This document shows positions 12,074-19,083 of a stretch of DNA of 39,010 bases, piece after piece; the first letter of the stretch is position 1, and every line of letters begins with the position of its first letter. This DNA is from a virus. The translations under genes and the position numbers were made by a program. The notes beneath the pieces are model-generated. The model searched no databases. It was given only the letters and a program-made list of their open reading frames with translations, and was not told the DNA's origin. The DNA lies in IMG/VR virus record IMGVR_UViG_3300046507_000265, positions 1-39,010 of that record; one strand, given 5' to 3'.

Positions 12074-12284
12074 CGACGATGGGCCTGACTGGCAGATGCA
12101 AGAGGAAGTTTTAGAACAATTGTACTGGTTCGAACAACAAGGAGTTCAGCGTGAAGACAAGCGAATCGCTAATCAAAATCTCAAAGGCTTTGCTCGACGC
12201 GCAAATGGCGATCAGTTTTGCTTCGAAGGATGCGACAAACCCGCACTTCAAGAACAAGTATGCGGACCTGCCAGCCGTGATTGA
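12066..12284 (+). CDS. Small acidic protein overlapping the ERF gene
   Basis: A 72-residue frame from ATG 12066, with an ACGGAG SD at suitable spacing. The first 30 residues are acidic and helical (MDDDDGPDWQMQEEVLEQLY). The last 134 bases overlap the start of the ERF gene in another frame. The N-terminal half looks protein-like and bridges an otherwise empty 77-base stretch; the C-terminal half may be only a run-on. Confidence is moderate. Confidence 0.45.
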   Translation: MDDDDGPDWQMQEEVLEQLYWFEQQGVQREDKRIANQNLKGFARRANGDQFCFEGCDKPALQEQVCGPASRD

Positions 12285-12762
12285 TGCCATCAAATCACCG
12301 CTCAACGATAACGGCATCGTGTTCATGCAGACCGGCAGCCCGTCCGATGACGGCTATTTACACCTGACAACGCGCCTCATGCACGAATCGGGCGAGTGGA
12401 TCGAAGACACGCTGGTCATGCCGTTACCTAAGCAAGACCCGCAAGGTTATGGCAGCGCTATGACGTACGCGCGCCGCTATGCGCTCTCGGCAATCACCGG
12501 ACTGTACCAGGACGACGACGACGGCAATCTTGGATCGGGTCACGGCAACAAAGCACCGCAGTCGGAAAAGATCCTGCCGCCGCGCGAGTTGGCGAAGCAT
12601 TCGAAGGCCATCAAGGATGCCACCGACGAAGCCTCACTTCGCAAGGCGTTCTCGACCGCCTACAAGGCTGCAGAAGCCGCTGGCGACAAGATCGCTATGG
12701 AAGTACTCACCGAAGCCAAGGATGACCGCAAAGCGGCTATCGGCGACACGCAAACAGCCTGA
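12151..12762 (+). CDS. ERF-family single-strand annealing recombinase
   Basis: A 203-residue protein from GTG 12151, with a perfect AAGGAG SD. It carries the ERF pattern: an N-terminal helix with LLDAQMAISFASKDATNPHF, KNKYADLPAVIDAI, then the central DPQGYGSAMTYARRYALSAI and GLYQDDDDGN. ERF proteins anneal complementary single strands and promote phage recombination and circularisation. The C-terminal half is a charged helical region. It is followed by an SSB-like protein and Gp157, a usual recombination module. Confidence 0.9.
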   Translation: MKTSESLIKISKALLDAQMAISFASKDATNPHFKNKYADLPAVIDAIKSPLNDNGIVFMQTGSPSDDGYLHLTTRLMHESGEWIEDTLVMPLPKQDPQGYGSAMTYARRYALSAITGLYQDDDDGNLGSGHGNKAPQSEKILPPRELAKHSKAIKDATDEASLRKAFSTAYKAAEAAGDKIAMEVLTEAKDDRKAAIGDTQTA

Positions 12763-13057: not shown

Positions 13058-13069
13058 TTGGAGACCACC

Positions 13070-13582
13070 ATGAACAATCTTTCTCTCTACACCCTGTCGT
13101 CGCAAGTCGAGCAGATCCTGAGCAGCCCGGATGCGATCGACCCGGAAACCGGCGAACTGTCGGAAGCACTCGTCGAAGCCCTCGCCATGACAAAGGATAA
13201 AGGCGTCAGCGTCTGCGCCTACATCCTGAATCAGGATGCTGTCGTCACGGCGATCGAGGCGCATGAGGCGCAAGTCGCCGCGCGCAAGGCTGCGATCGTC
13301 AGCAAGCAGATCAAGTTGCGCGAGTACCTGGCGGTCAGCATGAAGCGCGCCGGGATCAGCGAGATCACAGCGCATGACGGGACATTCGGCGCGAAGCTTC
13401 ATGCCGAGCGCGATGCTTCGGTCGAGATATTCGACGAGGCACAAATCCCGGCTGAGTTCATGAAGGCACCAAAGGCGCCGGCACCAAATCCCAGCAAGAC
13501 GGACATTTCGAAAGCCATCAAGGCTGGCCGCGAAGTTCCGGGCGCACGCATTGTGAAGCGCGACCGTCTGGAGATTGCGTAA
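13070..13582 (+). CDS. Gp157-like siphovirus-type recombination accessory protein
   Basis: The 170-residue protein fits the Sipho_Gp157 family: an N-terminal helical segment (LYTLSSQVEQIL), an acidic DPETGELSE, a long helix over about residues 60-95 (EAHEAQVAARKAAIVSKQIK), then the beta part around GISEITAHDGTFGAKL and a basic end. Family members sit next to single-strand annealing proteins. The biochemical role is not firmly known. ATG 13070 is chosen for its GGAG SD at seven bases. Confidence 0.85.
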   Translation: MNNLSLYTLSSQVEQILSSPDAIDPETGELSEALVEALAMTKDKGVSVCAYILNQDAVVTAIEAHEAQVAARKAAIVSKQIKLREYLAVSMKRAGISEITAHDGTFGAKLHAERDASVEIFDEAQIPAEFMKAPKAPAPNPSKTDISKAIKAGREVPGARIVKRDRLEIA

Positions 13583-14045: not shown

Positions 14046-14051
14046 CTCGAG

Positions 14052-15356
14052 GTGAAAGTGAATGACGTGGCTCTACATTCCATCGAACTGTGTGCCGGAA
14101 TCGGAATGCTCGGAGAAGGTGTCCGGGCCGCACTCGAGTATCTCGGATGCCAGCATCGAACCGTTTGTTACGTGGAGCGGGAAGCCAGTGCAGCCGGACA
14201 ACTTGCCGCGCTTATGGAAACGGGAGCGCTTGATGAAGCGCCTATCTGGTCTGACCTTCTCACCTTCGACGGCGCAGCTTGGCGCGGACGAGTTCATTGC
14301 GTCATTGCCGGTTTCCCATGCCAAGACCTTTCAGTTGCCGGAAGGCGCGCCGGGCTCAACGGCAAACGCTCCGGTCTCTTCTTCAACGTGCTCGACATCG
14401 CGGATGCTTGCGGTGCGCAATTCCTCGTTCTGGAGAACGTGTCAGGCATCACTTCTGCCACCGCCGCCGTTGTGGACGAAACCGAAGGCGAGCTCGACGA
14501 GCGCGCGGCCGCCCGAGTCCTGGGAGAACTGGCCGACCGCGGGTGGAATGCGGAGTGGATGCATCTTCGCGCGTCCGACGTGGGAGCGAATCACCAGCGT
14601 GAGCGTTGGTTCTGCATCGCCTGGCGGAACGTGGCTGACGCCGTTTGGAATGTCGGGCATCGAGGCGGAGACGGGGAAAGTTGGGGCGGGCGGGGAATTC
14701 GCGAAGCAAGTGCATCAATGGCAAACGCCGACGACGATGGCGGCCAAGGGCGTGGAATATCAGCGCCAGGCGGACGGATCGAACATAGCCATTCTGAGCG
14801 GACAGGCGCAGCAGTGGGCGACACCGGATGCGCATGCAATGGAGCGCACGAACCGGAGCGACTCGCCGAATGCTGCCGTTCGGCCGACGCTGGCTCTGGC
14901 TGCTGCGCAATGGTCGACGCCGAACGTTCCGAACGGTGGCCGATCAGTCTCGGCGGAAGTGGTAGCGAGCCGCGGCAAGACGGAGAACGGCAAGCGTCAG
15001 GTCGGCTTGGAGTCGGAGGTTCGACATTGGGCCACTCCAACAGCGCGCGATCACAAGGACGGCGCGACGTCGCTGGAAAACGTGGAAGTGAATGGGCTGC
15101 TCGGACGCCAGGTGTTGGCGACATCTTTGCACCCGGTCCACTCGACGCTCGATGGTCGGGAATTGTCACCGACCGCCCGGACCTTGCGCCGGCGACTGAA
15201 CCCGGCATTCACATGCTGGCTGATGGGATGGCCTATCTGGTGGACGAATCCCGCAATCACCAACTGCGTCAGGCTGGAAACGGCGTTGTGGCGCTCCAAG
15301 CTGCAACGGCAATTATCGAGCTTCTTCAGCGCGCCGGATTTTCGCGTATCGCCTAA
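14052..15356 (+). CDS. C5-cytosine DNA methyltransferase (Dcm-type)
   Basis: The 434-residue frame contains the ordered C5-methyltransferase motifs (numbered from GTG 14052): I, ELCAGIGMLGEG (12-23); IV, GFPCQDLSVAGRR with catalytic Cys90; VI, ENVSG (128-132); VIII, HQRERWF (181-187); X, RQAGNGVVALQ with Gly-Asn-Gly at 409-411. Between VIII and X the target-recognition region is unusually Gly/Ser/Arg-rich and repetitive (MANADDDGGQGRG, VGDTGCA, MVDAERS, LGHSNSARS). All key residues are present. GTG 14058, five bases after GAGG, is an equally good or better start. It would methylate cytosines on phage DNA to evade host restriction. A second complete frame overlaps it. Confidence 0.88.
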   Translation: MKVNDVALHSIELCAGIGMLGEGVRAALEYLGCQHRTVCYVEREASAAGQLAALMETGALDEAPIWSDLLTFDGAAWRGRVHCVIAGFPCQDLSVAGRRAGLNGKRSGLFFNVLDIADACGAQFLVLENVSGITSATAAVVDETEGELDERAAARVLGELADRGWNAEWMHLRASDVGANHQRERWFCIAWRNVADAVWNVGHRGGDGESWGGRGIREASASMANADDDGGQGRGISAPGGRIEHSHSERTGAAVGDTGCACNGAHEPERLAECCRSADAGSGCCAMVDAERSERWPISLGGSGSEPRQDGERQASGRLGVGGSTLGHSNSARSQGRRDVAGKRGSEWAARTPGVGDIFAPGPLDARWSGIVTDRPDLAPATEPGIHMLADGMAYLVDESRNHQLRQAGNGVVALQAATAIIELLQRAGFSRIA

Positions 15357-15393
15357 CCCCATCCGCGCCTCGCGCGAATCAATCGACATCTGA
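14062..15393 (+). CDS. Overprinted 443-residue protein in a second frame of the methyltransferase gene
   Basis: An uninterrupted frame in another phase covers the methyltransferase almost end to end. Its ATG (14062) follows a GAGGTG SD by seven bases and it runs 37 bases past the methyltransferase stop. It starts MTWLYIPSNC, is Ser/Thr/Pro/Trp-rich, contains four Q/H-W-x-TP motifs (Trp at 220, 252, 284, 323) and ends with LNPAFTCWLMGWPIWWTNPA. I recall proteins with this start, W-x-TP repeats and the LxPxFxxWLMGxPxxW end recurring in many phage genomes, which argues for selection on this frame. Function unknown. That two intact frames persist over 1.3 kb is remarkable. Confidence 0.6.
   Translation: MTWLYIPSNCVPESECSEKVSGPHSSISDASIEPFVTWSGKPVQPDNLPRLWKRERLMKRLSGLTFSPSTAQLGADEFIASLPVSHAKTFQLPEGAPGSTANAPVSSSTCSTSRMLAVRNSSFWRTCQASLLPPPPLWTKPKASSTSARPPESWENWPTAGGMRSGCIFARPTWERITSVSVGSASPGGTWLTPFGMSGIEAETGKVGAGGEFAKQVHQWQTPTTMAAKGVEYQRQADGSNIAILSGQAQQWATPDAHAMERTNRSDSPNAAVRPTLALAAAQWSTPNVPNGGRSVSAEVVASRGKTENGKRQVGLESEVRHWATPTARDHKDGATSLENVEVNGLLGRQVLATSLHPVHSTLDGRELSPTARTLRRRLNPAFTCWLMGWPIWWTNPAITNCVRLETALWRSKLQRQLSSFFSAPDFRVSPNPIRASRESIDI
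14716..15044 (+). repeat. Four-copy repeat coding in both overlapping frames
   Basis: Units beginning CARTGG or CATTGG occur at 14716, 14812, 14908 and 15025; the first three are exactly 96 bases apart. Each is followed by a related run of the type (g)(c)RACnCCGA. In the methyltransferase frame they give MANAD, VGDTG, MVDAE and LGHSN; in the other frame WQTP, WATP, WSTP and WATP. Confidence 0.7.
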
Positions 15394-17837: not shown

Positions 17838-18043
17838 GCGAAATCGAAATGTTGGAGCGGGCATTCGAGTTTTATGAGGCGCGCCGGCCGCGCCCGACGC
17901 AGGTCACAATCGGACAAGCCGCAGAAATGCTCGGGCTCAGCCGCTGGACCGTGAGCAAGATGCTACGCACCGGTCAGTTCAAGCTGAACAAGTGCGGACT
18001 GATCCCGATCGAGCAGGTTGACGCGGCGCGGCGCCAAGCTTAA
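17834..18043 (+). CDS. Excisionase-like DNA-binding protein
   Basis: A 69-residue protein with a MerR/excisionase-type helix-turn-helix: VTIGQAAEMLGLSRWTVSKM, then LRTGQFKLNKCGLIPIEQVD. It is the last plus-strand gene and is convergent with the integrase, sharing four bases at their stops. That small size and position fit an Xis that directs excision. A general regulator of the same fold cannot be excluded. Confidence 0.7.
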   Translation: MSEIEMLERAFEFYEARRPRPTQVTIGQAAEMLGLSRWTVSKMLRTGQFKLNKCGLIPIEQVDAARRQA

Positions 18044-19083
18044 AGGCGCGCTGCAATGTCTTCCGCCGACTCGCGATAGTAGGTGGACATGAGAATCTTC
18101 AGATCGGCGTGCCCGCTGATTTTTGCCAAGGTCATCACGTCCACCTTTCTCGATAGCCGCGTCAGCGCTTCGGCGCGCGAGTCGTGGAAATGCAGATCAG
18201 CGATCGATGGAACTGACTCAGCCAGGCGATCTCGGGCTCTCCTGAACAGCACATCGAGGGAGGACGACGAGATCGTGAAGCACTTTTCGCGGTCCGCCAC
18301 CGGCCGCAGCAGACGGATCGCTTGGCGCGTCAGCGGAATCTCGCGCGGCCGCCCGGTCAGGTGCTGCGTCTTGTGCGGCACGCGCGCCACGCGGCGCCGC
18401 ATGTCGAGCGTCTTTTCCCCAAGGCTCAGTATCTCGCCGGCGCGCATGGCCGATCGGATCGCCACCAGGAACGCGAGCGCAGCCTCCTGGCTGAGCGACC
18501 GCGGCACTTGTCCCGACCGATAGCCGAGCCACCGGCAGATCAGCTTCACTTCCTTTGGCGAGACACGCCTGTCACGCGGTGGCGGATCGGACGGCTGTCG
18601 GAAGCCTTCGAAGGGGCTAGTCTCCAGCCAGTGCCATTCCTTGCGCGCGATGTTGAACGCATTGCGCAGCCAGCTGATATCGCGCTGAACCGATGCGATC
18701 CCCACGCGCTCGACCTTCTTCCCATTGCTCCCCACGAAACCATTTAGCCGCGCGTCGCGCCACGCCGCGAGGTCGGGCGTGCGAACCTCTTCTAGTGTTT
18801 TGCCTGCCAACTCAGGGAAGTTGCGCAGGAAGGCGCGCAGGCGCAAAGACTCGGGCCGGGAACCGCGCTTTGCCGGGATGATTTCCGCATCGTAGCGTTC
18901 CAGCATCTGACGCAGGGTATGGCGCGAAGCCGGCCGCTTTTTGCTCTGCTCGCGGATCTCATGCTCGCGCGCGGCAGCCCATGTCTTGGCCTCGCGCTGC
19001 GTGCGGAACGTCCCAGAATCGCGCTCACCCAGCACATAAATCTGGACGCGCCACCCGTCTTTGTATGCGGTGATGGAAGCCAC
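18040..19083 (-). CDS. int: Tyrosine-recombinase integrase
   Basis: A 347-residue integrase. The N-terminal arm-binding part (ITAYKDGWRVQIYVLGERDS) and a SAM-like core-binding domain are followed by the catalytic domain with Arg214 (AMRAGEIL), Lys238, His300-x-x-Arg303 (HDSRAEAL), His325 (SGHADL) and the nucleophile Tyr335 or 336 (MSTYYR). It would insert the phage into the host chromosome. The start codon is GTG and lies inside a copy of the GTGGGGA repeats upstream, so integrase or other factors bound there could limit its own expression. Confidence 0.93.
   Translation of the reverse strand: MASITAYKDGWRVQIYVLGERDSGTFRTQREAKTWAAAREHEIREQSKKRPASRHTLRQMLERYDAEIIPAKRGSRPESLRLRAFLRNFPELAGKTLEEVRTPDLAAWRDARLNGFVGSNGKKVERVGIASVQRDISWLRNAFNIARKEWHWLETSPFEGFRQPSDPPPRDRRVSPKEVKLICRWLGYRSGQVPRSLSQEAALAFLVAIRSAMRAGEILSLGEKTLDMRRRVARVPHKTQHLTGRPREIPLTRQAIRLLRPVADREKCFTISSSSLDVLFRRARDRLAESVPSIADLHFHDSRAEALTRLSRKVDVMTLAKISGHADLKILMSTYYRESAEDIAARL

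Follow-up and report, generated by a model that had tools for sequence, protein, structure and literature searches.

Can one stretch of phage DNA encode two proteins in two frames of the same strand over its whole length, and what would the two then be to each other? The question is raised by a virus genome (IMG/VR virus record IMGVR_UViG_3300046507_000265, positions 1 to 39,010; one strand), all 39,010 nt of which are called the window here. We regard this virus as a temperate tailed phage because an ERF-family annealing protein and Gp157 (12151-12762 and 13058-13582, 5' of the methyltransferase described below) and an integrase (18040-19083, opposite strand) are present. A sequence-only reading had pointed to two intact same-strand frames over the same 1.3 kb, and we could confirm both ORFs, which overlap by ~1.3 kb. 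Their features, in window positions, are the following:

14052-15356, + strand: frame 1 ORF, 434 aa counted from GTG 14052
14067..15356, + strand: alpha, putative C5-methyltransferase catalytic subunit in frame 1, GTG start (PF00145, PHROG, Foldseek)
14062..15393, + strand: beta, overprinted frame-2 ORF of 443 aa, with W-x-TP repeats and motif IX in its C half
14049..14069, + strand: dual initiation site (GAGGTG 14049-14054, beta ATG 14062, alpha GTG 14067)
14079..14624, + strand: alpha catalytic region, motifs I-VIII (AlphaFold pLDDT mostly above 90)
14079-14108, + strand: alpha motif I, frame 1
14310-14342, + strand: alpha motif IV (PCQ), frame 1
14424-14450, + strand: alpha motif VI (ENV), frame 1
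14589-14624, + strand: alpha motif VIII (QRER), frame 1
14625..15125, + strand: alpha linker opposite the beta repeats, open, unconstrained in sequence, predicted disordered (pLDDT ~35)
15126..15326, + strand: alpha C-terminal block FAPGPxDxRW...PDLAPATEPG...SRNHQLRQAGNGVV (motif X), frame 1
15249-15326, + strand: alpha motif X (GNGV), frame 1
14629..15060, + strand: beta W-x-TP repeats, putative target-recognition segment, frame 2
14629-14658, 14719-14751, 14815-14844, 14911-14940 and 15028-15060, + strand: the five beta W-x-TP repeats
15190..15249, + strand: beta motif IX, RRLNPAFTCWLMGWPIWWTN, frame 2

In our best reading of the sequence, the locus would make a C5-methyltransferase from two different chains, resembling M.EcoHK31I, with the TRD/motif IX subunit overprinting the whole catalytic gene; we put the probability that the two frames specify subunits of a single C5-cytosine DNA methyltransferase at about 0.8. 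We favor it because of the stop avoidance, the frame-switching signature and the position-matched homology, and also because of the twin starts, the reciprocity between beta and methyltransferases and the lack of a folded TRD in alpha. Against it speak nine relatives joined in another phase, frame-2 stops in two loci (L040, L104) and linker stops in another two (L023, L024).

Residues 10-194 of alpha match PF00145 (8e-24, Pfam), it matches PHROG DNA methyltransferases, and the best Foldseek matches of its model are M.HaeIII (5e-13) and M.HhaI (1e-12), that is, a C5-methyltransferase catalytic fold. Motifs I, IV (PCQ), VI (ENV), VIII and X of PF00145-type enzymes are all present in alpha; motif IX and the putative TRD, which such enzymes carry on the same chain, are in frame 2. 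The earlier statement that frame 1 holds all C5-methyltransferase motifs has to be corrected accordingly, motif IX and any TRD being absent from it. When alpha was modeled as a single chain with AlphaFold, the pLDDT reached 96 in the motif X helix and was ~35 over residues 203-333, and the model of alpha alone contained no folded TRD.

That the two frames might carry adjoining parts of one protein was first suggested by PHROG: beta matches phrog_1008 (“DNA methyltransferase”, 3e-11) at profile positions 103-285, and motif X of alpha matches the next stretch of this profile, positions 293-320. The internal W-x-TP repeats that had been noticed in frame 2 are indeed there, five in all, and together with RRLNPAFTCWLMGWPIWW they form the C half of beta. 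We take RRLNPAFTCWLMGWPIWW to be motif IX from its position, from homology and partly from its likeness to the motif IX consensus. There are relatives, which we call one-frame methyltransferases, in which motifs I-VIII, LPTPxAxD repeats, RLxxxFxEWMMGWPxGW and SRNxxLRxxGNGV follow each other in a single frame; they are carried by mycobacteriophages (Babsiella gp54), a Gordonia phage and Streptomyces, and MelBins gp5 is also of this kind. The frame-2 family aligned with their repeat/IX (VIII-X) segment (hhalign, 97.5%, 6e-12) and the frame-1 family with their X segment (96.2%, 2.6e-9). Because the one-frame methyltransferases carry the same repeats and motif IX between VIII and X, we take beta to be the missing half of alpha's enzyme and not an unrelated or antirestriction protein. 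Its C half would supply the putative TRD, a fold for which the low-confidence beta model gives no support.

A different possibility is that frame 2 encodes an independent protein, e.g., antirestriction or regulatory, that merely shares the DNA of the methyltransferase. No known homologue was found for the N half of beta, and none of the 36 members searched matched a Pfam family (0/36), as would suit such a protein; beta had no PADLOC match either. However, the C half has its homologue in the VIII-X segment of methyltransferases, alpha lacks this segment, and beta was not found apart from a methyltransferase, so that we find an independent protein very unlikely and have dropped the idea of a second, perhaps antirestriction, activity. 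Among the best 80 beta-like matches, 72 of the 73 distinct loci overlap the catalytic domain of a methyltransferase and the exception is cut by the contig end; the proposal to look for a methyltransferase in the other frame of frame-2 homologues thus gave a positive answer in 72/72 complete distinct loci. A likeness of the beta profile to the MS2 coat protein was taken as spurious, the matches to solved structures being weak (best 0.005). Modeled alone with AlphaFold, beta had a pLDDT of 52, approaching 80 solely in motif IX and the C-terminal helix, and this poor prediction might faintly hint at an obligate partner.

Long spurious ORFs are common at the ~62% GC of the window gene, and frame 2 could be open merely from base composition and codon usage, with no second protein at all. 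The null came from shuffling the synonymous codons inside every gene, which leaves its protein and codon usage unchanged, and scoring the stops that arise in the remaining frames. This was done for a first set of relatives, most of them retrieved by a frame-1 query, and for a second one retrieved with the frame-2 profile; some contigs occur in both sets, which are therefore partly dependent. Some 2-10 frame-2 stops were expected per relative and nearly all have 0-1, usually at the extreme ends, whereas the stops in frame 3 match the null; frame 2 is open also in genes of 46-55% GC. Over the catalytic half of the 50 distinct loci with the overprinted layout there are 9 frame-2 stops vs. 124.8 expected, and 42 of the loci have none (3.3 expected). 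Of the 8 remaining loci, 6 have their stop immediately 5' of the frame-2 start, and the true exceptions are L040 and L104, with frame-2 stops within the catalytic half. One-frame and split methyltransferases showed no such depletion (31 stops vs. 25.1 expected in the 8 one-frame genes tested, 31 vs. 28.0 in the 7 split ones). The second set gave 3 frame-2 stops vs. 71.6 expected in the catalytic half; frame 3 is depleted there as well (118 vs. 244), so that composition must contribute to some extent in this region.

The reverse was found in the linker between VIII and IX, where it is frame 1 that avoids stops: 48/50 loci have zero (3.6 loci expected), with frame 3 at the null, and the second set has 0 stops vs. 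211.5 expected, with frame 3 near the null. Frame 2 is open beyond chance in the relatives, as an overprinted gene should be, and the suggestion of a long overlap with both products conserved is borne out by this stop avoidance. Breakage of frame 2 as often as chance predicts in homologues of the methyltransferase, which had been named as the result that would tell against a second gene, was looked for and did not appear. The codon-permutation nulls, with their frame-3, one-frame and split controls, rule out an artefact of composition, and frame 2 also has a wobble signature of its own (see below); we give this explanation practically no credence.

Both frames appear to begin at a common site. 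A single Shine-Dalgarno-like GAGGTG precedes both starts in the window, the beta start lying 5 nt upstream of that of alpha; in-frame GTGs are found further upstream (14052 and 14058), and GTG 14067, which is conserved, is the likely start of alpha. Frame 2 had been credited with an ATG and a GAGGTG of its own, and what stands is ATG 14062 behind GAGGTG, although the latter is common to both starts. In 58/58 relatives the frame-2 ORF opens with NTG and TGG, adjacent or separated by one codon, so that its product begins M(x)W(L/I)xxP; the xTGG at the same time provides a start codon for frame 1, 2 or 5 nt further downstream (CTG in 3/58). At the comparable position of one-frame and split genes this twin-start pattern was seen in 1/18 (L084). 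In the second set 70/71 loci have a frame-2 start, and 69 of these 70 also have one for frame 1, offset by -4, +2 or +5 nt. The W is conserved in the -4 lineage (e.g., L166, ATGCATGACTTGG) though unneeded there for the frame-1 start, which speaks for frame 2. Frame 2 has, in other words, its own conserved start, another mark of an overprinted gene.

Which frame is constrained varies along the locus. Pairwise substitutions by codon position point to frame 1 in the catalytic region, frame 2 in the repeats and motif IX and frame 1 again in motif X, and this switching is seen at every divergence level. The pairs are not independent, so that the directions are the result and not p-values. Among those with 84-90% identity over the catalytic half, identities in frames 1, 2 and 3 were 0.858, 0.737 and 0.676 in the catalytic domain and 0.546, 0.696 and 0.545 in the repeats; in frames 1 and 2 they were 0.874 and 0.901 in motif IX and 0.887 and 0.632 in motif X. 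In the repeats, divergence peaks at the first codon position of frame 1, which is the wobble position of frame 2; in this part frame 2 is therefore the one that codes, and the frame-1 linker, though free to vary, nevertheless stays open. The C half of beta is under purifying selection, as expected for an overprinted gene. Things are different in the N half: wobble constraint in the catalytic half is no stronger than in one-frame, split or neighboring-gene controls, and in a pairwise permutation the excess of frame-2 similarity over the null was just moderately above that of frame 3. Because of this the N half of beta may have no function of its own, and its first ~200 residues look like a leader kept open for the shared start, barely constrained in sequence. 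The earlier supposition that frame 2 is under selection holds for its C half, by the codon signature, and for its being open throughout, but not clearly for the sequence of the N half; in the same way, the wobble-constraint check gave a frame-2 signature in the repeats and motif IX and no clear difference in the catalytic half.

The succession of coding frames (1, 2, 1) is exactly what would be needed for a single chain made through two programmed frameshifts, a +1 shift after VIII into the repeats and motif IX and another back before X, and ordinary enzymes have all these parts on one chain. Yet such a chain needs neither an open frame 2 upstream of the shift, nor an open frame 1 through the linker, nor a conserved second start, all of which are found, and we consider it unlikely.

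The overprinted arrangement is not restricted to the window phage. One motif pattern matched at least 600 viral-contig stretches, of which at least 439 were confirmed relatives; others come from Acidovorax, Acinetobacter and Synechococcus phages, from MAGs of Betaproteobacteria and Chloroflexota and from alphaproteobacterial plasmids, and no DNA match to the locus was obtained in E. coli genomes. In a tree of the catalytic domain the one-frame genes group with the split ones in a single clade and most of the remainder are overprinted genes, with the root and the number of origins uncertain. In the loci looked at, public records annotate a single frame: frame 2 is a “cytosine-specific methyltransferase” in Alfacinha1/3, a “hypothetical protein” in Sphingomonas paeninsulae and a “DNA methyltransferase” in Roseicitreum. 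At L001 (2504-3637), L139 (2008-3099) and L141 (2414-3163), the overprinted frame is annotated (as methyltransferase or hypothetical) and the catalytic one is left unannotated. At L006 (3005-5227), the frame-2 ORF runs on without a stop into a downstream frame that is ParB-like by eye, giving an ORF of 741 aa.

Profiles for I-VIII, the N and C halves of frame 2, IX and X were run over all loci, and in all loci of the overprinted kind motif IX lies in the +1 frame relative to X, as does the frame-2 N half relative to the catalytic domain. Nine distinct relatives, scattered over the tree, have the catalytic/frame-2-N block and the IX/X block each intact and joined in another phase (L015, L019, L033, L074, L075 and L080; L016, L022 and L077). 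This alters the assignment of modules to chains, and the exact alpha/beta pair of the window could not be made there; they are either indel errors, decay or a real re-partitioning of modules. In L023 (3541-4143) and L024 (3556-4578) the frame-1 linker is full of stops and the X block (~YWPPGP...GNGVVPL) lies in a separate short ORF, possibly a methyltransferase in three pieces. The phase-shifted relatives would also be understandable if the locus were a decayed or recombined methyltransferase pseudogene with TRD-IX shifted out of frame. Purifying selection, however, persists in both frames across highly diverged relatives, and the linker is free of frame-1 stops in 116/118 loci over the two partly overlapping sets, making a pseudogene highly improbable.

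M.EcoHK31I (YGGCCR), naturally made of two polypeptides, has genes that overlap in different frames. Its large polypeptide carries motifs I-VIII and X, with a predicted TRD, and motif IX is on the second one (PMC3404938). By motif layout alpha corresponds to the large chain and beta to the second, which makes M.EcoHK31I the nearest precedent for this division of motifs; unlike in M.EcoHK31I, the TRD-like repeats are in beta, the alpha linker being unconstrained and disordered, and beta is as long as alpha and spans the whole catalytic gene. Another two-subunit enzyme, M.AquI, likewise has I-VIII and IX on different chains, but there motif X sits with IX on the small subunit (PMC3404938), while here it stays with I-VIII in frame 1. 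The split genes of Arthrobacter and Streptomyces phages (Chickaboom 41/42, Juno112 41/42, Lilbooboo 32/33) belong to the same family and have repeats and IX in the +1 frame relative to I-VIII; in contrast to the window, it is the second gene that carries both IX and X, and over the first one frame 2 is closed. Babsiella gp54 and MelBins gp5 have the identical module order (I-VIII, LPTP repeats, IX, X), but on a single chain, with frame 2 closed as often as chance predicts. Isolated parts of C5-methyltransferases can reassemble, the best split points lying between VIII and the TRD (PMC3404938). A phage methylase with an insertion that contains an HNH homing gene in another reading frame (PMC11855218) is an overlap of an unrelated kind.

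Returning to the two-subunit reading, we infer that both products are translated. From one ribosome-binding site, ribosomes would most likely initiate at the beta ATG as well as at the alpha GTG, giving an alpha with the SAM-binding and catalytic motifs I-VIII, a disordered linker and X, and a beta with the leader, the putative recognition repeats and IX. The two would assemble into an active heterodimer that would methylate the phage DNA, presumably against host restriction.

In the openly licensed literature we found neither this overlap described nor any widely occurring subunit that overprints an entire catalytic gene from a twin start. We lean towards regarding these loci as a widespread and undescribed kind of phage C5-methyltransferase with end-to-end dual coding, in which a specificity subunit lies over the catalytic gene, the start is twin, each frame holds half an enzyme, and out-of-phase joins in the repeat region re-partition the modules between chains. 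Long complete same-strand overlaps are rare, with 84% of annotated viral overlaps below 50 nt (PMC7017920), and here one of ~1.3 kb recurs in diverged phages, prophages and MAGs. If each product is one half of a single enzyme, catalysis and specificity would be locked in one block of DNA. This would explain database “methyltransferases” that have no recognition domain, as well as W-x-TP proteins labeled methyltransferase or hypothetical, and cloning or annotating a single gene of the overprinted class would miss half of the enzyme. With hundreds of one-frame, split and overprinted relatives, the origin and the cost of overprinting become directly testable.
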